From Porphyridium purpureum (lineage: Eukaryota > Rhodophyta > Bangiophyceae > Porphyridiales > Porphyridiaceae), in the NCBI GenBank assembly GCA_008690995.1, contig VRMN01000007.1, forward strand, positions 62,001-126,000: a stretch of DNA of 64,000 nucleotides, in the 5' to 3' direction. The notes beneath the pieces are model-generated. The model was not told the DNA's origin. It ran no database searches and was given only the letters and a program-made list of their open reading frames with translations. Positions 13,634 through 59,556 of this stretch are shown in pieces. The translations under genes were made by a program, and so were the position numbers. The first letter of the stretch is position 1, and each line of letters begins with the position of its first letter.

Positions 13634-13754
13634 GCACCGCGAAATGCCGCATGGCGACTGTACTTCGTTACTGTACTTTATTGAGCTCGCACGCGAGTTG
13701 CGCACGAGCGGCAGTGCGTGCGCCAGGAGAAGAGGCGTCGCGAAGGTGCAGACC

Positions 13755-22637: not shown

Positions 22638-22692
22638 ACTGTACCCCTACGTACAGTTTAGTACAGTTATCAGGTACACTATATAGTACAGT
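22638..22692 (-). promoter_or_regulatory. Cluster of ACTGTAC/GTACAGT motifs upstream of the YGGT gene
   Basis: ACTGTAC lies at 22638-22644, GTACAGT at 22651, 22661 and 22686, and the variant GTACACT at 22674. The same motif continues beyond the Copia element at 28662-28724, so the two clusters were one divergent promoter before insertion. Confidence 0.5.
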
Positions 22693-22694
22693 TG

Positions 22695-22992
22695 CTTTGA
22701 TGATAGCGTCTTCGTGAAGCACGCGTATACCAAACGTGTACCAATAGTAAACTACTGGTGGCTAGCTGAAGCAAGAGGTCCACAACAAGACGACTTTACT
22801 CCTCAACACAACCTAGCTCTTACCTCAAAAGGAGACAGAGCGCCGACTCGTCGGCCGTCTCTCACACTCTAATGATATACTACTGTGGTTAACCATTACG
22901 GTCACCAACCAACGGAGAGTTGTCATCATTAAGTATTTGATGACTCCACATCACGTCATCAGGCAGGCAGAGAGGGATGACTATATTCCACG
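22695..22992 (-). repeat. 3' LTR of Copia element 1 (298 bp)
   Basis: It is about 99% identical to 28346-28643 and flanked on the outside by AGTTG (22690-22694). Just inside (22993-23004) is a G-rich polypurine tract on the element strand. Confidence 0.95.
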
Positions 22993-23032: not shown

Positions 23033-26000
23033 TCACACTCGCTCGACAAGGTGCCAGCGGGTGTACGGATCATTGTCACACGACATTCTCTCATCATCAT
23101 GGCTGTACGCATAGCCGCGCATGCTAGCATCATCGTCGCAGTCGTCGGGCTGCATGAGCATCGCGAGGGCGTGGCCACGGTTGGCGGCGGAGCGAGCATG
23201 CGTCATACGCTGCGCGACGCCAAGGGATAAGCTTGCACCGTACAGGCCCCACGCGGCTGCATGGCCGCGAAACACGTCGGTGGCAATCGGCTTCGTCAAG
23301 CCGTCAGCGATGTTGTCGCGCGTAGCGACATAGACGAACTTGACGAGTCCGTCCGCTGCTATCTCGTGCAACCATCTCAGCGAGATGCGCTGCATCTTTG
23401 GCGCGTGCAGTAGCCGGTCACTGTGGCCGCGCTCCACCGCGCGTAAAGTCGACTCGTTGTCGCACCGCACAACGATCGGAGGCCAGCGCCTTAAAAGTTC
23501 TTCCGCCAATGTCGCCACTAGGAACACGCTGCCTTGCGCTGCGTCGTGCAGCGCTACCAACTCAGCCTCGGTCGTCGAGGTGCTGACGCGCCGCTGGCGC
23601 CGACTGGTCCAGTCTACAAGGTGTTGGCATCTGCCATTCGATATGAAGAGCACGGCGCCGCTCGTGGATGACGGTGCCGAAAAGTCGGCATCAGCCCACG
23701 CGTGCAACCGAACGTCGCGACTGCCTGTCGCGGGTATGTCGTATTGCAGACAGACGTCCGCATGCTTCTTCAGATACCCGACGATCTCGTCGAGCGCGCG
23801 ATCCGCGCTTGGCCCCCACCGGTCGACATAACGCGCCACATGCGCCGTGGCATAAGCGATGTCTGCTCGCGTGGTTCGGCTGAGCCACAGCAGTTGGCCA
23901 ATCACTGTTCGCTTGTTCGTCGGGCACGCGCGCCCGCCGGGACCATTGTCGTCGACCCGCTCGCTGAGTGGCGTGCTGCGCACGCGCAAGTTGTCCGCGG
24001 TGTGGCCGTTCGCCACATGGGTGGCGTACACCCCCGAATCCAATATCCATCGGCCGCCGTCGCGATAGATGTGCATGCCGAGATACTTGATAGGGCGCGT
24101 ACGCGCCGAGTCTGCAATGTATTCGACCTTCTGGTCGATTCTGAAAACGGTCTTCAGTTGTTTGACCGCCACTCGTACCGCATCCGCATTGCCGAAGAGT
24201 GCGCCATCGTCGACGTACATGCTCAGCGTGAGCATGCTGCCGTTCGCGTCGCGGCGCCAGTACTGGTTCTTGTCCGCGTTGGATTCTTGCCATCCAAGCC
24301 GCCGGACACGCTCGCGAGCGTCGTGGCTGAAGTCGCTGCCGCTCCGTTTCATTCCGTACAGAGCTTGCGGTAGCTCGACGACAGGCTCGCTGCATGCGGC
24401 CATCTTTCTGTAGTCGGCTTCGCTGACTAGACCCTTCACGACCGGGACCAGGTCGCGCAGATATCCGAATGTCGGACGGCCGCCCAATGGTGCACTGGGG
24501 TAGGCACACGTCACGTCGAAGAAGGCGCCGTCGGCGGATGGTCCATGGAGCATGAGCGCCATGCTCATCGAGGCGCGGATCGCCAGCAAACCTGGTGGGC
24601 GATCAAAAGGGTACGGTTCTTCGCGCGCGCGACGCCCATCGGCGTCTAGCACGACGCATCCTTGCGCGACGATGCGGCACTTCGTCTTGTGGAACGACGA
24701 AGGCATTTCTGAATTCTTCTTGTTGAAGAGGAGCTTCAACTTAACGAATTGCGCGTTCGGAACGCGCGCCGCCACTGCCTTGTCCATCGTGCGGCGGAAA
24801 GGCAGAGCGCCGGTGCTAGTGAGCGCACGAAGCTCGGATGCTAATGCATGGCGGCCGGCGGGCGTGGCCATCGCCACCGCTGTGGCCACAACTTCTGCCA
24901 CCCCCAGACCTGCCGCTTCGTCCTCTGGTCCTCCTGTCGCCGCGCTTGTGTACGTTGCGTTGCTGCTACTCTCTGCTCGCGTCGCGTCGTTCCGCGTCGC
25001 GTCGTTCCGCGTCGCGTCGCTCGCTGCTGCTGCGTGCACTGGAAGCACACCCAGTTCCGCTGCGCGCGCGCGCAAGCCGGCTGGTTTGCGGCCGCGCATG
25101 AAGAATGCTGGCCTATCCGCGATGGCAAGCCAGTCCTCACCAAAACGGGCAATGCCTTCGGATATGGCAATGTCCTCGGCCGGACTCCACGGCAGCTCAA
25201 TGCGCCGATACTGTGCTCGCGACGCGAGCTTTCCGTGCTCGTCTCGGTTGCACTGGCAGTGCATTTGCCTGCATGCGCCGTCACCAGTGTGACGTCGGCT
25301 AGGCGCCGGACCCAAAATGCATTTCTCGCATTCGGTGCTCCCACCGACTATTTTCTTGCACTGTGTGCAGAATGCACGGTCCGGTGCATTGTCGCGTGCT
25401 CGCGACCATTGATCACCCGTCGCAATGGCCTCATCCGGAGGCCGCAGTGCCAAACGTCGCAATGGCCACCTGTCGGGAAGTGGCTTCCATTCGCCGACCT
25501 TCCTGATCGCAGATGGCCGCAAGTCGGCAATGGGCAGGGCGAGCAGGTTTATCGGCTGCCGCGGGTCATTTGGCCTCGGTGCCGTGAACCCAACGACGAT
25601 TGCAGGCAAGCCTTTCGGCTCAAATTTGCCGCGGCTCTCATCGTACATGAGAATGCCGCTCCCGAATCCAGGGATGGGCTTGTGCCATGTCAGACCGAGC
25701 CGTTGCTCGAAGCTGGTCTGCTCCTGCTTTGCGCCGCGCCAGGCAAGGTTTCTGGCCAGGCAAAAGTAGGCGGCGGCGAACGGATACCACGCGGTCGGCA
25801 AACCAGACTGCATCAGCAGTGCTCGCACTGCTCCGTTCAAGTCTGCGTGCTTGCGTTCATGCATCGCGTGCGTGTTCGCCCGGTACGGTACACCAGTGAC
25901 TTTCTTCACGCCCTTTTCCGCGATGAATCCGTCGAATTCGCCCATGAACTCGCGGCCCTCGTCACACCGCAACACTCGTGGCCAATCACCACGTCCGCGC

Positions 26001-28096
26001 TGCAGCTCCGTCAACCCGCGAATGCACTCAGCGGCGGACTTGTCCGCCAGCCCAATTGCTGAGAACCACCCAGTGGCTTCGTCGAGGTGAGTGAGCAGCC
26101 ACCTGCTGCCCTCCACGGCTGCCAGTCCGGGATCCACAATGTCAATCGACACCACGTCGTTGAACTCGCGCGCTCGTCCGCGCTCTTTGCCAACCGAGTC
26201 GTCTCGCCTCACAGCACGCGCGCGCCGCAGCTTTGCCGCGCTGCATATTCCGCACGTGTCGCGCGACGGCATGTGCAGAACGCAATGGTCCTGCTCTACA
26301 TGCTCAGCCTCGGCTGTGCCAAGACTGTGACCGCCGATGGTCATTTCGAAGCGGTTGGCTCGAAGCCAATCGAGACCGATCACGAGGTCATTGTGGCCAT
26401 TGTACACGACCACGTCCTGCTGCTTCTCTGCTGAATCCAGCACCGCCAGATTCACTGTCGCGCGCCCGCGAGACATGCACTGCGTGCCGTCTGCCAATCG
26501 AATGGTCAAGGCATTCGCGGTGCTATTTGTGCGCACTCGCACCATCGCGCATGCGCTCTCGCTCAGAAAGGTGTGCGTTGCGCCGGTATCGATGACTGCT
26601 TTCATCGCCCGGCCGTTCACCCAAGCATTCACCTTGAGCAACCCTTTGCCCGCACTGGCGGTCATCAACTCGGCTCCGCCGAGATTGGCATCGCGATCAT
26701 CGCGCCTATCTGCACAGTTGTGCGTCGCTGGCCCCCACACGGAGCACCGATGGCAGTAATAGCGCCCACGCTGATTACTCTTCTTGCCATCTTGTTGCGA
26801 CTTCGGCGTCTGTCGCGGTCGTGGTCTACTGGCACCGCCTCGTTGCGGTGCGCCACGCTTCTGTCCGCGCCCACGCGCGTCGTTCTGGCCGCCACCACGG
26901 TTCCAACCGTGCGTGCTCGGCTCTCGCCAGCCGCCGTCTCGTCCGTCCGCGCGGCTCTGCGCGTACCGCTCTGCATGATTCGCACGCAGGTTCCGGTGCG
27001 GTCCAGCTGGTGACCATTGGTCATGCTGTTGCTGTTGATACTCGTTCGAGCGATCCCGCTGGAAGTCGTTGTATCCTCGTTCGTGCACCCGTGCGCTGCT
27101 GCCGCTGGCGGTACCCAAGTCCATTGGCACCGGACCATGCTGGTTATAGTTCATCTGGGGGTGGTATGCAGGCTGCATGGCTGACGGGTACGTGCGTGCT
27201 GTGATGGGCTGCTGGTCTCGACCACGCTTAAATATGACTTTGTCGGCAACTAAAGCCAAACGCAAAGCGTCGTCATAGGTGGGAGGGAAGTGAAGCGCTA
27301 CGTGAGTGGCAATAGAAGTGTCAAGAGATTCTGTAAAATAGTGAAGTTTATCTTTGTCTACCAAATTTGGTATACGCAGACAAACTTCACTAAATGCAGC
27401 TTCAAAATCTTGGACACTCATTGCACCCTTCTTCATCTTTTGCAGTTCATCCCGCACGTCATTTTCTGTTTCTTTGGGCTCGAAGCGCCGCTGAAGCGCG
27501 AGCAGAAACTCTTCTACCGAGGTGGGTCTCTGGTCAGGTTGTAATGCCTGGTACCAGAGTTGCGCCAATCCGAAGAGGTGAGTCGAAAGCGTCGACACTG
27601 CTTCCTCTTCCTCGGTTTCCGTCCAAAGACGGCCTTGCGATCGCCAATCCGAGCGCGCCGGGTTGTACACCCGCGAACGCGCTGCTGCCGTCCAGGTCAT
27701 AATGGCCGCAGTGGATCGCTCGCCGCCATAGTACAGCATGGCCGCAGGGCGCATGCAGCTCGGCAAAGCGCCACTTCCACCGGATCCATCGCGAAGCGCC
27801 CTCAGACGAACGTTCTCGCTCCGCAGCTCGGCGAGCTCACTCTGAACAATCGCCGTCCGGGTATTCAGTTCGGTCGCCATCTTGGCGCCGAATTCCTCCG
27901 AGAGTTGGCGATGCATTTGGGCGTATGCCGCATTCAGCATCGCCGCCATCTCTCGTTTCGTTTCCTCGCGCGCGGACTCGCGCCGCGCACTTGCTGCCGC
28001 GCCAAGGCGGGTTGCCGAGGCGTTTGCACCACCGCGTGCCGGCGACGGTGTTGCTGGGGTACTAGCACCCGCAGCCCTATCCATGTCATATTCCAT
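23033..28096 (-). CDS. Gag-Pol polyprotein of Copia element 1 (1687 residues)
   Basis: A single frame opens at the ATG at 28096. Gag is at the N-terminus with a Cys-His knuckle-like C-H-R-C followed by H-N-C. The aspartic protease has V-I-D-T-G-A-T-H-T-F (about residue 500). The integrase has a His/Cys zinc region, S-I-D-I-V-D and D-E-G-R-E-F acidic motifs and a later H-E-R-K. RT has M-Y-V-D-D-G (about residue 1295), and RNase H has A-D-A-D-F and C-D-N-E-S. Between integrase and RT lies an unusual insert: a Cys-rich segment and a SANT/Myb-like domain (about residues 965-1020). Integrase before RT defines the Copia order. Confidence 0.93.
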   Translation of the reverse strand: MEYDMDRAAGASTPATPSPARGGANASATRLGAAASARRESAREETKREMAAMLNAAYAQMHRQLSEEFGAKMATELNTRTAIVQSELAELRSENVRLRALRDGSGGSGALPSCMRPAAMLYYGGERSTAAIMTWTAAARSRVYNPARSDWRSQGRLWTETEEEEAVSTLSTHLFGLAQLWYQALQPDQRPTSVEEFLLALQRRFEPKETENDVRDELQKMKKGAMSVQDFEAAFSEVCLRIPNLVDKDKLHYFTESLDTSIATHVALHFPPTYDDALRLALVADKVIFKRGRDQQPITARTYPSAMQPAYHPQMNYNQHGPVPMDLGTASGSSARVHERGYNDFQRDRSNEYQQQQHDQWSPAGPHRNLRANHAERYAQSRADGRDGGWREPSTHGWNRGGGQNDARGRGQKRGAPQRGGASRPRPRQTPKSQQDGKKSNQRGRYYCHRCSVWGPATHNCADRRDDRDANLGGAELMTASAGKGLLKVNAWVNGRAMKAVIDTGATHTFLSESACAMVRVRTNSTANALTIRLADGTQCMSRGRATVNLAVLDSAEKQQDVVVYNGHNDLVIGLDWLRANRFEMTIGGHSLGTAEAEHVEQDHCVLHMPSRDTCGICSAAKLRRARAVRRDDSVGKERGRAREFNDVVSIDIVDPGLAAVEGSRWLLTHLDEATGWFSAIGLADKSAAECIRGLTELQRGRGDWPRVLRCDEGREFMGEFDGFIAEKGVKKVTGVPYRANTHAMHERKHADLNGAVRALLMQSGLPTAWYPFAAAYFCLARNLAWRGAKQEQTSFEQRLGLTWHKPIPGFGSGILMYDESRGKFEPKGLPAIVVGFTAPRPNDPRQPINLLALPIADLRPSAIRKVGEWKPLPDRWPLRRLALRPPDEAIATGDQWSRARDNAPDRAFCTQCKKIVGGSTECEKCILGPAPSRRHTGDGACRQMHCQCNRDEHGKLASRAQYRRIELPWSPAEDIAISEGIARFGEDWLAIADRPAFFMRGRKPAGLRARAAELGVLPVHAAAASDATRNDATRNDATRAESSSNATYTSAATGGPEDEAAGLGVAEVVATAVAMATPAGRHALASELRALTSTGALPFRRTMDKAVAARVPNAQFVKLKLLFNKKNSEMPSSFHKTKCRIVAQGCVVLDADGRRAREEPYPFDRPPGLLAIRASMSMALMLHGPSADGAFFDVTCAYPSAPLGGRPTFGYLRDLVPVVKGLVSEADYRKMAACSEPVVELPQALYGMKRSGSDFSHDARERVRRLGWQESNADKNQYWRRDANGSMLTLSMYVDDGALFGNADAVRVAVKQLKTVFRIDQKVEYIADSARTRPIKYLGMHIYRDGGRWILDSGVYATHVANGHTADNLRVRSTPLSERVDDNGPGGRACPTNKRTVIGQLLWLSRTTRADIAYATAHVARYVDRWGPSADRALDEIVGYLKKHADVCLQYDIPATGSRDVRLHAWADADFSAPSSTSGAVLFISNGRCQHLVDWTSRRQRRVSTSTTEAELVALHDAAQGSVFLVATLAEELLRRWPPIVVRCDNESTLRAVERGHSDRLLHAPKMQRISLRWLHEIAADGLVKFVYVATRDNIADGLTKPIATDVFRGHAAAWGLYGASLSLGVAQRMTHARSAANRGHALAMLMQPDDCDDDASMRGYAYSHDDERMSCDNDPYTRWHLVERV

Positions 28097-28330
28097 GACC
28101 AAACACTGGGCGCGTCGCGCTCACCAGTTGCGCTTCGAGCGCCTCTTTTTTCCTTCTCGATGTTCGCGGCGCCGATCAGCGTCTTGGCTGTCGCGCTGCC
28201 ACAGTCGCTTTTCCAAAGCGTGATCGAGGGTAGAGTTGGGGAATGACCGAATGATAGAAACGCAACCACAATAGGTGGTTAGTCAAGCAAGCAAGAAGAA
28301 GAAAGATGAGGGAAACACCACAGCGCAAAG

Positions 28331-28345
28331 GCTGGGCTCATAACC
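28331..28345 (-). other. Half-tRNA primer-binding site of Copia element 1
   Basis: On the element strand GGTTATGAGCCCAGC follows the 5' LTR without a gap. It is complementary to the anticodon stem-loop region of initiator tRNA-Met, as in Drosophila copia, which primes with a tRNA-iMet fragment rather than the 3' CCA end. Confidence 0.8.
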
Positions 28346-28643
28346 CTTTGATGATAGCGTCTTCGTGAAGCACGCGTATACCAAACGTGTACCAATAGTA
28401 AACTACTGGTGGCTAGCTGAAGCAAGAGGTCCACAACAAGACGACTTTACTCCTTAACACAACCTAGCTCTTACCTCAAAAGGAGACAGAGCGCCGACTC
28501 GTCGGCCGTCTCTCACACTCTAATGATATACTACTGTGGTTAACCATTACGGTCACCAACCAACGGAGAGTTGTCATCATTAAGTATTTGATGACTCCTC
28601 ATCACGTCATCAGGCAGGCGGAGAGGGATGACTATATTCCACG
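28346..28643 (-). repeat. 5' LTR of Copia element 1 (298 bp)
   Basis: This is the right-hand LTR of the element, followed on the outside by the target duplication AGTTG (28644-28648). Confidence 0.95.
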
Positions 28644-28648
28644 AGTTG

Positions 28649-28724
28649 GTACAATTGTCGGGTACACTACAGAGTACAGTGGGTACATTATGAGTGTACT
28701 TTATGGAGTACAGTGAGGTACAGT
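28649..28724 (+). promoter_or_regulatory. GTACAGT motif cluster upstream of the CrtA-like gene
   Basis: GTACAGT lies at 28674, 28708 and 28718, GTACACT at 28662, and an inverted AGTGTACT at 28693. Together with the cluster at 22638-22692 it formed one dense divergent promoter. The rest of the stretch to 29101 shows no gene. Confidence 0.5.
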
Positions 28725-34300: not shown

Positions 34301-35303
34301 CTTCTCTTGCGTCTCTCTGTCTCGCTCTCTCTCTTTCCCTGTCTCTCTCGTCCGCGACCCGCCACTCAACACCCACTGTACCTAAACGAGACACTGTACA
34401 CAACCTCACCAACTGTACTTCTCCTCGGCTCCCACTGAACACACTGTACATAATGGTTCAGTGGGTGTTCAGTGCGAGGTCGAGATTTTTGCAACGGCCA
34501 CGTGCGATGGGCTGCGGGAGACGTTGCGGCCCGCGCGCCGGCTGCGCGTTTGCGTGATGTTGGAGCACGTCGGAGCGTCCCTTTGCCGTGTTGTTCCGTG
34601 TACGTGCATGTTGGCCGCGCGCTATGGCATCCGAATCACTCATGCCATGTCATCATCCATTATCGTGTCTGTTCTGCTCGCGACTGCGCTGCAGCCCAAC
34701 GAAGAAGCCCATAACGGCCGTGTAAGAGGCAGGCAAGCAATGAGGCGCGCGAATGACGCACGGAACAGGAGACTCGCCGCCGTGTGCTAGGTGCTGATGC
34801 GCTTGCGTGGCGTTGGTTTCGGTCACGGCGCGTGCCTGGCCTGCTGGTCGGCTTGGTGTGTTCGTTAGTTGGCTCTGCTGATGACGAGTCGTGGGACAGC
34901 GACAAGCGGCGGAGACGGGGACATCGCGTAACGGTTGTGCAAGGCTGCTCACTGAGGTGCATGGGATTAGTTGTCTGCGAGTCGGGTGAAGAGTGCGGCT
35001 GGGCGCGTGTGAGGGAGCGACCTGTCAATTTTGGTGTGCTACGTGTGCGTATATAAGACACGCGGCGCAGGTGTCCCATCTGTCTGCCGCTGCATAGCGT
35101 CAGCCTCGTTGGTCTGTTGGCTTTGATTGCATGCCGAGATCCACTGCAGCCTGGCGGGTTCATGGTTTGATTGGTTGGCGGTTCATGGTTGTGCAGGCGA
35201 GAGTCACACAGGCAGACAACGACTGGCGGAGTTCTCGGCGTCGCACCGTGGAAAGCTCGCTGGCTGGCGGCTTGGTCTATTTGAGATTGGTGAATACGTC
35301 GGT
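34301..35303. other. Divergent intergenic region between ELP3 and the SNase-like gene
   Basis: ACTGTAC occurs at 34375, 34393, 34412 and 34443, close to the ELP3 start. On the other side a clear TATA box (35050-35057) serves the plus-strand gene. In between only shadow frames are seen. Confidence 0.45.
35050..35057 (+). promoter_or_regulatory. TATA box of SNase-like gene
   Basis: TATATAAG lies about 250 bp upstream of the in-frame ATG at 35304. The first ATG after the expected transcription start (35131) is in another frame, so either an upstream frame or a short intron in the leader is possible. Confidence 0.5.
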
Positions 35304-40060: not shown

Positions 40061-40434
40061 TGTGAAACAGGATTATGAATGGGTGCATGAGCGTAGACGA
40101 ATGCCATGGTGCGTGTTGTCGCCTTACCGAGAGATGATGACTTTCCGATTCCAAAGCCGCCTTTATACGTCAAGACCTATTCATCTCTGCCTCCCAGTCT
40201 AGACAAGCACCACGACAAGGACACGGGCATCTCTTTTATATCTCGGCCTCGCGCCCCCGGACCGAGGCGGGCTGAGGCTCGCACAGCGCGCGCACGTGGT
40301 GGTCCACTACGCATACCGGTCGTCACCTTGGCGCCCCCATTGCTGACGACCCCTCGAGTCATTGCGGGTACAATCGTGGCGCCCCCACGGGTCATCGTCG
40401 AGCTCGTCGCGAGGATTTCGAAGTTCTCTTCACA
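40061..40434 (-). repeat. 3' LTR of Copia element 2 (374 bp)
   Basis: It begins TGTGAAACAGG and ends TTCTCTTCACA on the plus strand, and is about 99% identical to 43441-43814. Its inner 258 bp also encode the C-terminal 85 or so residues of the pol frame. Confidence 0.95.
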
Positions 40435-43422
40435 CGCCCCCTCCTCGCGAGGAGCAACGAGTGCTTGTTCGAATGTCATCTCTTGGTCTTCTCCTGGGCT
40501 GTACAGTTGCGTCTGGCGATGCTTTGCATCCTGGAGCATCGTCGGTGACATCAAGGCGCGGTGTGCGGCTTTCCAACATTCGTGTTCATTGATGAATTCG
40601 TCGCTCCGCTGCAGGCTCCGCGCATGCCGACAGAGCACATCCGCCGAAAGTGCTTTCGTAAACATGTCAGCTGGATTTGCATGTGACGCGACTCTCCACA
40701 GGGCCGTTCGCTCGCCCTGGAAGAAATCATGCCACCGACTTAACCGAATGCCGTGGTACTTGCTCACGGCGGTGAGGCGCGAAGAGTAGCCCTTCTTAAC
40801 CGCTGCTTCAGCCGCTTCGCTGTCTACAAGTACTGCCGCTTGAGGCGCTGAACCCGTTATGGCCTCCACAGCATCACAAAGTGGAATCAGTCCACGGTCA
40901 ACCCCGTCCGCAAGCGCAACCACTTCTGCCTCCGTCGTGCTCGACGCAGCACACCGCTGCTTTCTGGACGACCAATCCACAAGCCAGCGCTGCGTCCCTT
41001 CCACGAGAAATGCGCACCATCCGCTTGTAGAGCGAGCCGTGATCGGGCACCCGGCGTGGTCAGCGTCGGCGAATAGCACCACTTGTGCTCCTGAACCCTT
41101 GCCTTGACCGGTTAATGTACCGTACTGGATCCTTGACTGCGTCTTCGCACGCAGGTACCCGATGATGTGTTCCAGCATGTCATCGGCTGTCGCATCCCAT
41201 CGCGCCGCACGCTCGGCGACCTGCCGTGTGGCCTGGCTGATGTCAGGACGCGTTGTTATGCTCAGCCAAAGAAGCTGACCAACGACGTCCAACTGATCAG
41301 TTAGCTGGCTAACGGGAGGCGCCGTGGTGGACTTGCCGGTCGGCGATGCAGGCGTCTTGCAAGTACGAACGACTTGCCCTTCTCGAGCCTCGAATGCCTT
41401 GATGACATGCTCCGCGTACCTAGTCTTATCGATGGAGACAACACCCTCACTTCGTGAAATGCGGTGGCCAAGGAATTGGGCTTCACCGTTGGACAGGAAG
41501 CTGACATGCTCATGGATGGGAAAAATTCGTCTTAGGCATTGAAGTTCCTTCTCAATAATTTCTGTTCTTCCAATTAGCATTCCGTCATCGACGTAGAGGG
41601 ACAACGTCATGCGATCCTGTCCTGTCGACTTCACGTACAGGTTCATGTCGTTCTCGGTAGCTCGCCACCCAGCATGCACTAATCTTTTGCGCGCTTCCAT
41701 ACCGTAGTCCGCGCCAGAACGGGGCATGCCGTACAAGGCACCCAACAATTCAACGACGGGGTCGTCATAACTCTCCCAAGCTGATGGGCAAGCCTCTGGC
41801 GGCAAACTGATGAAAGTTCGTGGCCCCCCTAGTCGTGATATTAAGTACGCTGCAGTAATGTCAAAAAATGCGACATCGAGGCCTGATGCAGTTGCTATAG
41901 CCAGGGCTGTCCGAAACGATGACAGACTCACAGCTTTCTCCAACGGGAAGTCACCGCCGCAAACCTTTGCACCTTCACCGTTTCGTAACACGCATCCTTG
42001 TGCCACGACTCTCGCCTTCAATTTCGCGCGTTCGGGTTCCTCCGCGTGTTTTAGCGACAGGATAACCTTACCGCGGACGTATATGGCATCTCCGAACCTG
42101 CTAGCGGCGTCACGCCTCTCCATTACGTTCGACGGGTCCCAGGCTCCCAGCTTAACTAGGGTCGAGACCTCTTTGTCGATGGCCTTCTGCCCCTCGGCCG
42201 TTGCGTGGGAGGATACAGGTAAGAGCTGAGTGAGCAGAGCAGTGTCGCTTCTGTACCGGGCCGGTATACGTTTGACTCGCCCACTAGTGCGAATACGTGT
42301 CTCTTCCTCAATTGCGGGACCTTCATTAGCCGACTCCTCCTGTCGCATCTCGATGGTCGTCGTGGGTGTGTGGCTGGCGCGTGAGTCTGGGCATTCGGAG
42401 ACTTCCTCCGACGGTTGGCCGCTGGTGCCAGTTATTATCAGTTCCTGCTCGCTGCCACCCTCGACATGGGCAGTTGCGTGTGGAATTGGGCTCGGCCTTG
42501 TGCATGCAAGATCATCGACACCTTCCTCATCATGCCCAACAGAGGTAACATCGAAGAGCTCGCTTTCGTTCGCCGAAGGCAGTGAACCCCCCTCAACTAC
42601 GCGGACATTGGTGGTTTCGATGACCGCGTCCTCAGCCGTGATGATCCTGTAGACTTTCGGGCGGGTCCCATAGCCGACGAGCCGTCCCTTGACGGCACGA
42701 GCGTCCAGTTTGTCTTTTCCGCGCGCATAAACGTAGGCAATTGCGCCAAGGCTTCTCAGGTGGCTGACATCGGTTGAACCATTGTATGCAGCTTGAACCG
42801 GGATTTTACCGCGCGCATTTTTCGTCCGGTTCAGCACATGGGCAATGGCTGGGGCTAACTCCGGCCACCAGCACTTTGGGATCTCCGCATCATCAACGAC
42901 AGCGCGAAGGCGCTCCAAGATTGTTCTGTTGAATCTTTCAGCCCGGCCATTCATTTCCGGGCAGCACGCTGGCGAAGGTTCGAGCGCCAGCGGTCGACCT
43001 GCCGCCCACGTGGTAATGTTTGCGCTCCTGAACTCCGTCCCTCGGTCCGTCCGCAATACGCGGGCAGTTCGACCACACTTTTGCTCCATGGCCTCAAGCA
43101 TGCTCGATAAGGCTTTCTGCGTCTCAGTTTTGTTGTGAATAGCCGTGACCATGCCCAGACCGCTGTAGTCGTCCACAAGGGACACGAGGTATTTTTCACC
43201 GCGTAGTCCACTAGGTGTGACGGCGAGCAAATCGGAGTGCAGCAAATGCAGACCCTCGTCAGCAAGTCGTTCGTTTCTTACATTGCCTGTCCCGTAGCTG
43301 GCGTGGCTGCTTTCTCCTTTTCCGCTCCTCCCACAACACCCTAAACTTGCTTCTGGCACAGAATAAGCTTCACTTGCATTGACCACGTAGCGTAATTTCC
43401 ACAATCCCCGCGCAGCGTAAAT

Positions 43423-53254: not shown

Positions 53255-53962
53255 TCAATCTGTGTTGTTGACAATCTCAATGCGCTTCGGCTTGGGCGCC
53301 TCTGGCTTCGCGCGCTTTGGCAGCGTCACAGAAATGATTCCATCCTTGGCGGCTGCCGAGATGTTGTCTGCGACAATATCCTCACTGAGTGTCAGACGCC
53401 TCTCAAAGCTCCTCTTCCTGAACGAGTCCATCGTGGTGCCTTTAGAGGAGACGGATTCTGCCGCCGCAGCATCCGCCGCAGTATTGTCAGTGTCCTCAGC
53501 GCGCTTCGCTGTCTTCTCCTCCATGTTGGCAGAAATCAGCAGCACATTGTCCTTGACCTCGAGTACGACCTTTTCCTTTGGGATCCCAGCCGCCTCCACA
53601 TAGAGCACATACTTGTCGTCAAACTCTTCGTAGCGGTACAATGGACTCCACATGCGCTGCGCGGGAGATACGCCCATGGCACGGTCCCATTGGTCAAATG
53701 GCGTTGTCATCATCCTCTCAGCTACATTCAGCAAGTCGAGCGCGTTGATCGGAACACCGAACGGCGACATAGACGGGACCATGTACCTGGCGGCGCGCGC
53801 ATTGGCCCTGCCGGGCGGGCCCGCCACCGCACCGTCACTTGCACAACCTCCCACCCGGTTTGTCTGCGGCGACGCTTGCGAGTAAGACGGCCTCACACCA
53901 TAAACACGAGCTCCAGGGACAACCCCAAACATGAAAGCCATCGCATTGGCTGCCTTTTCCAT
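53255..53962 (-). CDS. HSP20: Small heat-shock protein (HSP20), organelle-targeted
   Basis: The product is 235 residues from the ATG at 53962; the Met at 53941 is also possible. A leader of about 60 residues rich in Ser/Arg/Ala suggests plastid or mitochondrial import. The alpha-crystallin domain begins with Y-R-Y-E-E-F-D-D-K-Y-V-L and contains V-E-A-A-G-I-P-K-E-K-V, the F-x-R-R-L-T-L segment typical of HSP20 and the final D-G-I-I-S-V-T-L-P-K motif. A Ser/Ala-rich acidic insert sits in the middle of the domain, where plant proteins are shorter. The protein would be an ATP-independent holdase chaperone. A TATA box is at 54143-54150. Confidence 0.9.
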   Translation of the reverse strand: MEKAANAMAFMFGVVPGARVYGVRPSYSQASPQTNRVGGCASDGAVAGPPGRANARAARYMVPSMSPFGVPINALDLLNVAERMMTTPFDQWDRAMGVSPAQRMWSPLYRYEEFDDKYVLYVEAAGIPKEKVVLEVKDNVLLISANMEEKTAKRAEDTDNTAADAAAAESVSSKGTTMDSFRKRSFERRLTLSEDIVADNISAAAKDGIISVTLPKRAKPEAPKPKRIEIVNNTD

Positions 53963-54387
53963 CTTGATGATGTTGGTGATGATTAGCACGCTTGTATCCG
54001 ACTGCACTGCTTTCACGTCAAGCGCTTTTCTGAACGACTTGCTGCGTTTGCTGTCTTCTGTAGCCCAATGTATGACACGTGCCCCGTACCCGTCTGCTCC
54101 AACAGAGTCAATTGGCCGTCGAACGCCATGTCTGCGCGCATGTTTTTATACCTCGCACCGACCTTGCACCTTACGCTCGAGGCAGGCCGCGCCAGCGCGT
54201 CATGAGCCATGCGCCAGGCAGTCAATGTGCCCGTTGGCCAGGCAGTGCGCGCCTTCCAGACGGCGCACGGGCGCAACGGCGTCTTCGCTGGCACCGCGCT
54301 GGCCGCTTCGTTGTCTCGCGCCTGGAAGGTTGGCGACCGAGATTGTTTGCCACTGTACTTTTTCATAACAAAAACGTGTGTTTTATT
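53963..54387. promoter_or_regulatory. Divergent promoter between HSP20 and the GT17 gene
   Basis: On the minus strand TATAAAAA (54143-54150) stands about 180 bp before the HSP20 ATG. No consensus heat-shock-element array was seen here, unlike at 44365. An AT-rich run just before 54388 is the only comparable feature on the GT17 side. Confidence 0.5.
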
Positions 54388-56421
54388 ATGATGCGTTGCA
54401 TTTCAGCTCGCACGTGCGTGTTCGTTCGCGCGGATGCGGACATGACGCGACGCGCGTGGGCGAAATGGGTGGGCACAGGCTTTGCTGTGTGCGCAGCAGT
54501 GGCGCTGCTGGTATGCGCACATCGCATGACCGTTGCGCCCGTCGCTCCGGTATTAGCTGAGAATCATGACGTGGCCGCTGCGGCAGAGGCGGCACGAGAC
54601 CAGGCTCCAGCTGCTGGACCAGCGCGACCATTGGGTGTGTTTGCTTCGCTGTCACCGCAAACGCGCGCCAGAATTGCGCGTGGCGTGTCAGCTGCGGATG
54701 CCATTGAAATGATTCGGGCCGACGGCAATGCCTCGGTTTCGCCGCCGCTCAAGAGGACGTTTGACTCGTCCGCATTCATCGAGTTGCTCATCACAGAAGA
54801 TGGCGCGCTTTCATCGGCACCATGGGACTTGGATCACGCAGAGACAGCCGAGGCGCTCATGGAGCTCGTGACCCCGTACGTGATAGCTGAACCCGAAGCG
54901 CCCCTGCAAGTGTTTTCGAATCCGGACCTGCCACCGAGTTCAAGCGCGCGCTTGCCTGTGAACTGCTCGGATGCAAGGTACGCGATGGCACTGAGCGGGG
55001 CACGCCTGCCTCAATCAGCAAGCCCGCGCCGCATTGTTGACTTTGTGCCAATCGGATTCAACCTGGACCTGCTCGAGATCCGATTGCTCGAGACCTCTGA
55101 CTTTGTCGATGTTTATGTCATTTACGAGTCGGAACGGACACACAAGGGTGCGCACAAGCCACGCTACTTTCTGGAAAGTCTGGCGACCACGCCAGAGCGG
55201 TGGCTGCGATGGAAGCACAAAATGATGTACATATCGAATACATACGCAGAATTGAGCAAGTACGAAGGCTGGAAACTAGAAAATGTGCCGCGCCATCGGA
55301 GCGTTCGTCACCTCAAAGAATCACGCCACGCACTGGCTCGCCAGCTCGTGACGTGGGCTGCGCCAATACACAGACGGCGTGCGGATGGTAATAGCAGCAG
55401 CAGCAGTGGCAGTGGCAGAGGGTCACCAAACCGAGAGGCGCTTGCGCTTGCCATTCAGAACGACGAGGACGAAATCCCGCTTGCCCATGCGCTAATGCAC
55501 GTCAAGTTTTGCGAGCTGCTGGGCGAATTTGCTTCGCCAGACAGTCTGCTGAATGAGACCTTTCGCATTGTCACGGTGCCGCCACACTACAAGCTGAATC
55601 TCGAGTGGCTCGAGCAATCCGCGTTGCTGCGCAAGGACGCGTTCCTTTCTGAACTGATGAGCGAATGGACTCGTCGCGATACCATGCTCGGCGGTGCGAA
55701 GCTTGCGCGCGAATACCTGAATCTGGTATCTGGGCACGGTCCGGAACTTCAGTCCTTACACTCGGTGCTTTCTCGTGGCACGGTGAAGCGCGCAGACCCT
55801 GCTGTCCAGAAAGGGACGCTGTTTCTCGGGCCGGCTAGTTCCATTCACCTGTCCTCGCTGAACGAGCCTGTACTGCAACTGCTGAAAAGCATATCTGTGC
55901 TGGAGGCCAAGGCGTCTGATAGCGTGTTTCCATGGCTGATGCGTGCGCTGGAGCACAACAAGCGCGCAGGTGCGATGAAGGATAATGTGGAATTGGTTGC
56001 GTGGACTGCAGACCCATGGTGCAGCCACCGAAGGTCTGTGCATATCTCGCAATTGTCCGCCGACACTCGTGAACTCTTATTTTCTGGCATTCCGTGGGCG
56101 GTCAAGTACAACCAAGACCGGTACCCGTTTTTGAGCGTCCCAGTTCGCGACCGTGCCATGATTGCGCCCGCGCCATTCAGCCCAGGTGTGCGGACGAGCG
56201 CGCGGTGCATCCGTCATGCTCCTGTGTCTGGTTCTGGGCAGGGAGTGTTGAACGGACAAGAGTGTGTTTGGCAGACGAGAGGGCCCGTGCGCTCCAGCTT
56301 GGTTCCAGCCCTGCTGCGGAACCGGAGTGCGGAGACACATTACAATGCCGACACCCAGACGGCACGCGTGGTGCGCGAGCATGCGCCGTTCGTTTGCGCC
56401 GTGCCGCTCTCTGTGTATTAG
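54388..56421 (+). CDS. GT17-family glycosyltransferase (MGAT3-like), type II membrane protein
   Basis: The product is 677 residues from the ATG at 54388; a second Met 18 codons in may also serve. One hydrophobic segment at about residues 25-45 marks a Golgi type II protein. The catalytic region starts R-R-I-V-D-F-V-P-I-G-F-N, then L-D-L-L-E-I-R-L-L-E and V-D-V-Y-V-I-Y-E-S-E, which is the GT17 signature of beta-1,4-N-acetylglucosaminyltransferase III and relatives, followed by K-P-R-Y-F. The rest is long compared with mammalian MGAT3 (about 535 residues), with a Ser/Gly-rich insert around residues 330-350. Likely role: transfer of GlcNAc or another sugar to glycans. The acceptor is unknown. 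Confidence 0.8.
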   Translation: MMRCISARTCVFVRADADMTRRAWAKWVGTGFAVCAAVALLVCAHRMTVAPVAPVLAENHDVAAAAEAARDQAPAAGPARPLGVFASLSPQTRARIARGVSAADAIEMIRADGNASVSPPLKRTFDSSAFIELLITEDGALSSAPWDLDHAETAEALMELVTPYVIAEPEAPLQVFSNPDLPPSSSARLPVNCSDARYAMALSGARLPQSASPRRIVDFVPIGFNLDLLEIRLLETSDFVDVYVIYESERTHKGAHKPRYFLESLATTPERWLRWKHKMMYISNTYAELSKYEGWKLENVPRHRSVRHLKESRHALARQLVTWAAPIHRRRADGNSSSSSGSGRGSPNREALALAIQNDEDEIPLAHALMHVKFCELLGEFASPDSLLNETFRIVTVPPHYKLNLEWLEQSALLRKDAFLSELMSEWTRRDTMLGGAKLAREYLNLVSGHGPELQSLHSVLSRGTVKRADPAVQKGTLFLGPASSIHLSSLNEPVLQLLKSISVLEAKASDSVFPWLMRALEHNKRAGAMKDNVELVAWTADPWCSHRRSVHISQLSADTRELLFSGIPWAVKYNQDRYPFLSVPVRDRAMIAPAPFSPGVRTSARCIRHAPVSGSGQGVLNGQECVWQTRGPVRSSLVPALLRNRSAETHYNADTQTARVVREHAPFVCAVPLSVY

Positions 56422-56690
56422 AGCTCAAGCTCGTTTATATTCTGTAAATATAGTGGGAGTGCGCAAACATGACGCTCTGACTTTCGTGCCAGGCATACGT
56501 ACCACATACAATGCTTCCCAGGGGAGAGGGCCAGCGACGAGCACGTCAAAGCTACAGGGAAAACCCCAGAAATTAAGAAAATAGTCAAATTACATCTTTG
56601 GTTTGCAGAACCCGAGACCATGTGCACGGCGACCATGGAAGCCAAGCTCCGACTCGGCCCAGCGTCCCTTATGGACTGACGCGAGGGCCT

Positions 56691-57383
56691 TTACTTGCCG
56701 GCCTTGTCATGCTTGTCACACGCGCTGTACAGGGTCTTGAGGAATGAGGGCAGCCCCTTGGCGACGAAAAAGTTCAACACTGTCTTGGGAATACTGCCGC
56801 GCGGGTCCTCGTACATGAAGAGCAGAAACTTGCAGTCGTTTGGGGTGGCGCCCTGCATGATCGCCGACTTGCTAAAGTAGTCGGTGACGCGCACGATCTT
56901 GGGTTTCTCCGGCAGGTCGGTGTCCACGACGGCCTTGCTGTACATCACGAACATCTGCTTCTGGTCCACGGTGTCGGTGCGCGTGCGCTTGACGTACGAA
57001 TAGTCGCGGTGGCTCATGGGCCACGGGTAGACCACCTCCCAGTAGCAGAGCTCCGTTCGCGACGGCTCGTCGACGACGCGCTTGACGTAGATCTCGCCGC
57101 ACGACGTATCCCATGTCTTGTGGTACTCGAGGTCATTGCACACGTAGAAGAGCGTGTCCGCGCTGTACGGCGCAGCGCCAAACACGCAGTACTGGAACGC
57201 GCCGCTGGGCATGGGCTTGCGCCACATCATCAGCGCGTCGGTGCTGTTGGCCGGGTCGCCCGAGCGCGTGAGCTCCTCCCACTCGTCCGCCTTGGTCGGG
57301 TAGTGCTGCTGCACCATGATTTCCTCCCCCATGGTGCGGACCGCGTCGAGCTCCGCATCGGGTACCTTGTGCGCGTCGGCCAT
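56691..57383 (-). CDS. START-domain lipid-transfer protein
   Basis: The product is 230 residues from the ATG at 57383 (M-A-D-A-H-K-V-P-D). The whole protein is one START domain of the StarD2/StarD7/PCTP group: Y-C-V-F-G-A-A-P-Y-S-A-D, then D-L-E-Y-H-K-T-W-D, Y-W-E-V-V-Y-P-W-P-M-S-H-R-D-Y-S-Y, and the C-terminal helix G-L-P-S-F-L-K-T-L-Y. The W-P-x-x-x-R-D segment is strongly diagnostic. Such proteins shuttle phosphatidylcholine or other lipids between membranes. No leader or membrane anchor is seen, so it is probably cytosolic. Confidence 0.9.
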   Translation of the reverse strand: MADAHKVPDAELDAVRTMGEEIMVQQHYPTKADEWEELTRSGDPANSTDALMMWRKPMPSGAFQYCVFGAAPYSADTLFYVCNDLEYHKTWDTSCGEIYVKRVVDEPSRTELCYWEVVYPWPMSHRDYSYVKRTRTDTVDQKQMFVMYSKAVVDTDLPEKPKIVRVTDYFSKSAIMQGATPNDCKFLLFMYEDPRGSIPKTVLNFFVAKGLPSFLKTLYSACDKHDKAGK

Positions 57384-59556
57384 TCTTCTGCACGTCTCCT
57401 TTTCGCCCTTACAACCCAAACTTGCCGCGCCGCGTCCACCTGTCCGATCCTGTCCGCCGGTCCCAATGGCTTGTCACGCAGATCTCTTCCAAGTCAAGTC
57501 TGGCAGCAGACCCGTCCAAGTCTAAATGTAGCCCGGGGGGTGATCCGTGGCCTGGAAGGAATTCCTGTCTACTTGTACCGCTCTCTTCCAGCCCGACCTG
57601 CTCCACGTCCGCGTCACGCCACACTCTCTCACGTGCCAACCGCGCTGCACCAAATCCGCGCAAATTCGTATCGAATCTCCGAATCTGCCGCGGTGCGAGC
57701 GTGATGGCCTTCCTTTTAAAACGGTCTGCACCACAACACCGTGCGCGCGGGCAGAACGTGACTCACCGCACGCACGCACGCTCGCCGCATGCGCGCCACG
57801 CGACTGCCACCGCATACGCGCGCACGCTAAAAATAGCACGCAGGAGGTACAGCCCGGCGCGGCCGGACGCGGCTCAGTATAAAGGGCTCGATGCATATGT
57901 GCGCATCGCTCAACTGGACCCTTCCACGTGGCATCAACGTGCGCGCGCACGGCCCTGCCGCGCTGCACGTGCGTGTGTGCTGCACGGACGCCACCACCAC
58001 GCGCAGCTATCGTCGTCGTCGTGGTGGTGTGCGTGCCGTGGCTGGGCGTGCCTGCGCATGTCGCGCGCGGCCCGTCTCGATGCCCGAGCTTGGTGTCGCT
58101 GGGTCGCCGCTGGGTGTCGTAGGCTGTAGTTCACGCCGCACGCGCGATCTCACACGCCCCAACCTGAATCACCTCCCGTCAAAAAGACCACGCCTCCCAG
58201 CTCGGCTCTTTCCGCCGCGACCGCCGCTGCACCCGCACTATACTTTCCCATGCATGTCCAGCTTGATATATCGAGCCCCCCGTCATTTGCGCCTCATTTT
58301 GTGTCGCCGCACGCTCACGCATGCAAAGTGAGCAAGTATCGGACGAATAACGGTCGGGTGTGGGTGCGCGAGGTTCGAATGACCACGGACGATCGAGCAC
58401 GGGCGCTCACTGCTTTCATCGGCAGTTGCGCCGCCGCCACCCGCTCGCACCCACCACAAAAACCCAGCACAAAAAGTGGGGGAAGTGAAGAACAACCACG
58501 ATCGTGCGGGTGCACGTGCTGACGCACACACACACACGCACGCATGCTCACATGCAAGCACCACGCTCCACCACCCGCTCGTACCAAAACGGCGCGCTTT
58601 TCTTATCCACTTGCACCCTCCCCTCCACCATCTCATCTCAGCTCACCTCACCTCCGTCTCATCCATTGTGGTCAAAACACAATACATAATCATAAATCAC
58701 CATGATCGCCACCCTATCCACATCACCACCATCACCACCACCACAACCAACCACCCACAAAAATACATTGCTCGCTCAGCTCTATTCCCTACGTCCTTAC
58801 TATCCAAATTCTCCAAAAATCACGTATCCACGCGGCGTTCGCCGATCGCATGAAAATATCTGCGGCGATCACAGCCACACAAACACAGGCATGCTGGCTG
58901 GCTGGCTGACTGGCTGGCTGACTGACTGGTAGGGAATGATAACGATAAGGAACGCGATCACACACCAGTAAGCCCCCGCCCCCCTCATTCACACGATCAC
59001 ACTGCGCGCAATATCCACAACCACCGCCACTGGGGACGACGACCAGGGGGAGGGGGGGGAGGCGGATTGATCAATTTTTCGCATTGATTTTGCGGAGCGC
59101 AAGTGCGCGCGTGGGCGGCGGGGGATGGAGGGCGTTGCGCCAGTGTGTGTTGTTGCGCTGTTGTGTTGGTGTGGAGGGATGCGGCGTGTGTGTGTGTGTG
59201 CGAGTTGCGGGTCTCTGGTGACTCACGTCGATGCGCGAACGTCGCGTGGGCAAGTTGGCGTGTGGGGAAGGGGGGAAGAGGGAAAGAGGAAGCACCGGCA
59301 TCTGGGTGGGGAGAAGGCGGAAGGAGGCAGAAGCACGAGGAGAACAAGAAGAAGAAGAGACGACAGTGCGTGCGTGTGTGGGAGATTCCGGCGTGGTTGG
59401 CGTGGCTCGAGGTGGCTGTGGGGCTGGGCGTGGGTGAGGCGGCGGCGAGATATGAACGCATAGCGAGCGGTTGTGCTGTGTTGGACGAATCGCGCCGGAC
59501 GCTGTGGGTGAGTGGCTGCGAGGTGGGTGCTGGCGACGGGGGAAGGGCTGAGGGTC
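57384..59556. other. 2.2 kb intergenic DNA with simple repeats
   Basis: No gene is supported. It contains CA-type microsatellite DNA around 58523-58545, a CAC/CCA-rich stretch at 58725-58760 and a GGCT/GACT tandem run at about 58890-58930. The right part (59100-59500) is purine-rich on the plus strand, probably the promoter and leader of the MYB gene. Long frames here come from the skewed base composition. Confidence 0.45.
58890..58930 (+). repeat. GGCT/GACT 4-bp tandem run
   Basis: About nine tandem tetranucleotides alternate between GGCT and GACT. It is a simple-sequence repeat with no coding role visible. Confidence 0.8.

Follow-up and report, generated by a model that had tools for sequence, protein, structure and literature searches.

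A Cys-rich and Myb/SANT-like module behind the integrase of Copia-type elements that insert beside host GTACAGT motifs in Porphyridium purpureum

A 64,000-nucleotide stretch of the red alga Porphyridium purpureum (contig VRMN01000007.1, positions 62,001 to 126,000; hereafter the window) contains a long terminal repeat (LTR) retrotransposon of the Copia type, and its polyprotein raises the question of whether a Cys-rich and Myb/SANT-like segment between integrase and reverse transcriptase, proposed in an earlier sequence-only reading as a tether to chromatin or DNA, directs the element to its insertion sites. Elements of its family, family A, choose targets beside host GTACAGT motifs. The related family K also has this preference although it carries no such module, so that the choice of GTACAGT does not require the module; this control is a comparison of families and not a deletion.

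The strings from which the segment had been recognised (FCTQCKK, CEKC, WSPAEDIAISEGI, RFGEDWLAIA and GRKPAGLRAR) were all present within window positions 25013-25390 on the minus strand, as residues 905-1030, which lie between the integrase core rve (648-741) and the reverse transcriptase match RVT_2 (1238-1370). Its Myb/SANT-like domain was predicted by AlphaFold to contain helices at residues 974-987, 990-995 and 1007-1017, and the SANT part modelled alone also gave three helices, with a predicted local distance difference test score (pLDDT) of 65-88 in six of the seven 10-residue blocks and of 46 in the final block, which agrees with the fold that had been claimed. The claimed spacing of Trp residues and basic third helix held in four families (A to D): two of the usual three Trp were present, with a spacing of 19 in A, C and D and of 23 in B, and the net charge of the third-helix part was +4 to +5. 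The net charge of the first helices was negative in A and B (-3 each) and in D (-1), and positive in C (+2).

In Pfam searches with pieces of 59-62 aa, a Myb model headed the matches for each of the four families (PF00249 with E 6.4e-5 for A; PF13921 with E 0.0034, 0.013 and 0.0081 for B, C and D, respectively), and for this reason the resemblance to Myb/SANT domains appears to exceed chance. The expected profile match was obtained in rank and not in score, as every single Pfam Myb score lay under the curated cut-off (best 23.4 against 24.4 bits, PF00249); since the PF00249 score is below its gathering cut-off, the domain is called Myb/SANT-like here and is not filed as a member of PF00249. 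The signal was weaker in longer open frames: PF00249 reached E 0.0085 in A, one B copy gave 0.2, and two further B frames and those of C and D had no Myb match at E <= 1. A four-family profile retrieved c-Myb, B-Myb and Trichomonas Myb chains with E values of 1.3e-6 to 8.4e-5, which sum several repeats, and ranked above them two designed-ankyrin chains, whose values also sum several repeats; single-repeat c-Myb chains had E values of 0.012 and 0.029. The Cys-rich part alone was matched by Pfam in one of four pieces (zf-piccolo, E 0.063), and neither this nor an NCBIfam search was useful. No chromodomain was present among the 11 Pfam matches to E 10 in the window polyprotein.

A search of the 22.16-Mb genome returned 22 matches to the module, namely 13 copies at 97-100% identity together with two pieces of one further copy (on C32); families B, C and D contributed three matches (38%), two (33%) and one (32%, in the cysteine part), respectively, and a last match was degenerate (29%). 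Counting two that have decayed, five families of the genome carry the segment. Seven cysteines were invariant among the window element, the P. purpureum database protein P0002 and the family B protein P0003; one of them is missing in C. D has all seven, though its SANT part is in a different frame, and at the degenerate locus L015 five remain beside a decayed SANT part. Between A and B, the W-S-x-x-E-D motif, the second Trp and the string PAFFMRGRKPA were also invariant, and 39 of the 68 positions of the linker following the module were gapped. Among 8 of the 13 A copies, five nonsynonymous and four synonymous changes gave the module a nonsynonymous-to-synonymous ratio (pN/pS) of 0.39, compared with 0.40 for the integrase part and 0.14 for reverse transcriptase, which indicates moderate constraint on small numbers. 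Protein searches with the module regions of A and B returned only P0002 and P0003, and a module profile (A3) found nothing at E <= 1 outside P. purpureum; these searches for relatives require shared 5-residue words, and those with the A and B regions scored the best candidates only, so that distant relatives may escape. With three helices predicted and the segment recurring in related elements, the sequence-only reading of the segment itself stands.

We judge it very unlikely that the segment belongs to a fast-evolving linker without a folded domain and resembles Myb/SANT only by chance. Such a linker would be consistent with the single Pfam scores, all under the cut-off, with the whole-polyprotein E of 0.0085 in A, with the absence of a Myb match at E <= 1 from all but one of the five longer B, C and D frames, and with a Cys part that is unfolded in the model; but it does not account for a Myb model topping the Pfam list in four of four families, for Cys and Trp residues that stay invariant between A and B beside a largely gapped linker, or for the three predicted helices.

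The insertion sites were compared among the Copia families A, B and K, besides old D-like copies, and one Gypsy family. For family A, 31 LTR matches were found, 21 of which gave 13 sites (two with a single flank); the ten left out were two internal LTRs of an array on C1, three copies with repeated flanks (C38, C14:498157 and C32:5780) and five partial matches (C42 twice, C32, C43:4245634 and C16). Family B gave 4 sites from 6 of 11 LTR matches. Of the five left out, three (on C39 and C19) duplicate C40, and the other two, at 77-80% identity, had unclear ends and no motif in 200 bp per side. The 12 sites of K came from 40 listed matches among 64 candidates and the 18 Gypsy sites, 7 of them single-flank, from 40 listed among 190, the skipped ones including two nested in family A; K and Gypsy sites were picked for clear pairing and not randomly.

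GTACAGT was first spotted by eye in the family-A flanks, after which all heptamers were counted; ACTGTAC ranked first and lay within 60 bp at 10 of the 13 sites. By chance this would have a probability of about 2e-15, or about 2e-11 after correction for all heptamers, with a local background of 5 in 27.6 kb. Motif density over the 13 sites was 19.4/kb within 30 bp, 16.0 within 60 bp, 7.9 at 60-150 bp, 2.8 at 150-300 bp, 0.42 at 300-600 bp, 0 at 600-1000 bp and 0.19 at 1000-1450 bp, a drop of about 100-fold with distance. In family B, which was not used for motif discovery, the motif was found at two of four sites, and in both an ACTGTAC pair ends 16 bp from the LTR. The copy of family D itself, an old family, has no exact motif in 150 bp per side; three of four D-like LTR copies whose 5' flank was read have it, with two of the flanks alike and the LTR ends uncertain.

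Family K has a related integrase (38-41% identity), and it shares with the window element the CGTGG start of the LTR and the 5-bp target duplication, present at 12 of its 12 sites. Its integrase-reverse transcriptase linker differs, since a coiled-coil-like stretch (by eye; weak Pfam matches, E 0.1-0.2) replaces the Cys/SANT module, and its frame has no Myb match at E <= 1 in Pfam. GTACAGT was present at 8 of the 12 K sites (A against K, p = 0.67), and the nearest exact motif lay 13-32 bp from the insertion at those 8 sites, compared with 2-30 bp at the 10 sites in A. That A and K, with different linkers, use the same places is also what would be seen if GTACAGT merely marked an integration hot spot, such as open DNA, usable by any element. 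We consider this improbable because GTACAGT lay within 60 bp at only 1 of 18 sites of the Gypsy family, whose target duplications are exact at 10 of the 11 sites with two flanks.

Selection of GTACAGT by the module was the leading reading until family K was compared, and it was then reduced to an alternative: in an R2-type site reader the module is required for the target preference, and here the preference was found without it. Of the targeting claim in the sequence-only reading, insertion at a preferred place was borne out and the module as its chooser was not. We rate as unlikely the alternative that the module itself recognises GTACAGT or GT[A/T]CAGT and so positions the integrase, acting like the targeting domain built into R2, whose target is read by a zinc finger and a Myb domain (PMC10499050). 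The looser GT[A/T]CAGT occurred within 60 bp at 13 of 13 A sites and 8 of 12 K sites (Fisher p 0.039), the common string PAFFMRGRKPA of A and B stands at the entry of the third helix, and two of the B insertions lie 16 bp from a pair of ACTGTAC motifs. Against this, the A/T variant is post hoc, defined only after the family-A sites had been seen, and the exact-motif preference of K equals that of A. A fuller version, in which a Copia lineage captured a zinc and Myb module behind its integrase to read GT[A/T]CAGT directly and SANT-less relatives use another contact to arrive at the same sites, is at least as doubtful.

The reading that we favour, to which we give about an even chance, is that the module is an accessory nucleic-acid-binding unit, made of a putative zinc site and a divergent Myb/SANT-like helix-turn-helix, on the C-terminal side of integrase in one red-algal Copia lineage. 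After processing, the module would stay joined to integrase and give the integration complex an extra contact with DNA or chromatin at the target. The choice of GTACAGT would be made by a feature common to the related module-less integrases, probably contact with a host protein bound at GTACAGT, like that of yeast Tf1 at Sap1 sites, and the module would stabilise or refine docking rather than select the site.

Several points weigh against this accessory role. Because module-less K shares the preference, no measured effect depends on the module, and the motif control outside this integrase clade consists of the single Gypsy family. The Cys-rich segment had no confident predicted fold (pLDDT 32-44), the structure models were built on three-row alignments, Foldseek E-values were about 0.3 or worse, and the Pfam scores were below threshold throughout. 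The module could also act elsewhere in the polyprotein, in RNA packaging, nuclear import or reverse transcription. A function in such another step (genomic RNA binding, nuclear import, reverse transcriptase support), unrelated to target choice, is a tenable but rather doubtful alternative: K targets the same motif without the module, a Cys-rich and basic design would suit RNA binding as well, and the position between integrase and reverse transcriptase does not fix the owner of the module after processing, whereas the likeness is to Myb/SANT domains that bind DNA and chromatin, and in other LTR elements tethers are carried on the C-terminal side of integrase, the putative chromodomain of CoDi-A (PMC2774666) being an example.

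A five-member reverse transcriptase tree separated the module-bearing A, B and D from two module-less members with support of 1.0, and in an integrase tree A, B and K clustered apart from two other Copia integrases. Both a gain of the module in the lineage of A to D and its loss in K are possible.

To our knowledge, the targeting of LTR elements works via peptides or chromodomains that bind host proteins, and we know of no other element of this kind with such a probable DNA-binding module fused behind integrase; tethering by a folded Myb/SANT-like module next to the integrase would be new. In the Copia elements Ty1 and Ty5, the targeting determinants lie in the C-terminal part of integrase, on whose C-terminal side the module is found here, and are short peptide regions that bind RNA polymerase III or Sir4, not a folded domain of DNA-binding type. 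Tf1 is an element of the Ty3/Gypsy type. Ty1 is reported in connection with RNA polymerase III (PMC8632968), and Tf1 of fission yeast inserts -9 and +19 bp from Sap1 motifs (PMC5741268), a spacing similar to that of A and K insertions from their motif, which for Tf1 is bound by a host protein and for GTACAGT would call for a hypothetical factor. The sequence-only reading had set chromodomains of Gypsy elements apart from Copia, which needs correction, since the CoDi-A Ty1/Copia elements of diatoms are reported to have a putative chromodomain at the C-terminus of integrase (PMC2774666). They are the closest Copia precedent found, with the Copia order and an additional chromatin-type module C-terminal of integrase, but with a chromodomain where the P. 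purpureum element has a Cys-rich and Myb/SANT-like module. The R2 non-LTR retrotransposon (PMC10499050) shares, in its N-terminal zinc finger and Myb, the architecture of zinc site plus Myb in a retroelement with a DNA target preference; it belongs to another element class, has a C2H2 finger and a specific ribosomal DNA site, and needs both domains, whereas K keeps its motif preference without the module. Searches of an open-access set of papers listed no Copia element with a Myb/SANT-like module. Should the module read DNA directly, the LTR element would contain its own sequence-specific reader, corresponding to the zinc finger and Myb of R2. The genome offers a natural experiment: its related integrases differ in whether they have the module, its young copies have clean duplications, and both kinds of integrase prefer a single host motif, which makes it testable what part of a Copia integrase is responsible for site choice.

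The order gag, protease, rve and RVT_2 in a single frame, with integrase before reverse transcriptase, is that of Ty1/Copia, as are the LTRs with a 5-bp target duplication, found at 9 of 11 two-flank family-A sites. RVT_2 in the window copy scored 27 bits, below the Pfam cut-off of 31.6 (67.6 bits in the related K frame), and the element is therefore called Copia-type from gene order and relatives. Its LTRs differ at 3 positions and are flanked by the duplication AGTTG, so the element is young. The open frame has TTG at its listed start and an in-frame ATG at residue 3, where P0002, with 97% identity, begins. Half-tRNA priming uses a primer-binding site complementary to the anticodon arm; the complement of the putative site here presumably resembles the anticodon arm of tRNA-Met rather than a tRNA 3' end. 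A Porphyra Copia element, to go by the title of a paper listed among the references of PMC5445492, reportedly has a gypsy-like integrase. GalEa-like Copia elements have been reported in Porphyridium cruentum (PMC3587641).

Table 1. Features of the element and of its surroundings (window positions, except for family K)
Feature	Position	Strand	Basis or remark
GTACAGT clusters, further	13657-13676 and 34375-34449
Host GTACAGT/ACTGTAC motifs, four, left of insertion	22638..22692	.	starts 22638, 22651, 22661, 22686
Target-site duplication AGTTG, left copy	22690..22694	.	flank reading
3' LTR, 298 bp, starts CGTGG	22695..22992	-	direct repeat
Polyprotein (gag, protease, integrase, module, reverse transcriptase and C-terminal part, RNaseH by position only)	23033..28102	-	1,689 aa
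Reverse transcriptase match RVT_2, PF07727, residues 1238-1370	23993..24391	-	Pfam E 4e-6
Myb/SANT-like domain, residues 966-1022	25037..25207	-	Pfam, profile search, AlphaFold
Cys-rich segment, putative zinc site (Cys 912, 915, 925, 928, 944, 949, 951)	25250..25369	-
Integrase core rve, PF00665, residues 648-741	25880..26161	-	Pfam E 8e-8
Aspartyl protease, PF13650 and PF13975, residues 491-581	26360..26632	-	Pfam
Gag, PF03732, residues 173-260	27323..27586	-	Pfam E 4e-11
Putative primer-binding site GGTTATGAGCCC, adjoining 5' LTR	28334..28345	-
5' LTR, 298 bp	28346..28643	-	direct repeat
Target-site duplication AGTTG, right copy	28644..28648	.	flank reading
Host GTACAGT/ACTGTAC motifs, three, right of insertion	28674..28724	.	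starts 28674, 28708, 28718
Family K (L093)	C11:384200-389000

A second, distantly related Copia frame lies at window positions 40177-43404 on the minus strand; its integrase is 18-20% identical to those of A and B, and no Cys/SANT module was seen in it on inspection by eye.

GTACAGT clusters are a strong host feature throughout the genome: for close direct pairs the counts were 448 + 442, compared with 6 + 4 when the pattern was reversed, and for close inverted pairs 245 compared with 4. Some open frame of at least 100 aa also covered 24 of 30 host clusters.

Among the matches listed, a canonical Copia family of 1426 aa was concentrated in stretches of a few tens of kb, mostly one per contig (C2, C3, C9, C11, C17, C18, C22, C30, C43 with two places, and others), and these places are possible centromeres. 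Family-A LTRs and elements form a 30-kb array at C1:2168882-2198877, which has Gypsy reverse transcriptase matches inside it and outer flanks that share the target duplication ACTAT. On C14, two family-A LTRs around an element (53491-59419) and a solo LTR (498157-498454) have the same flanks.
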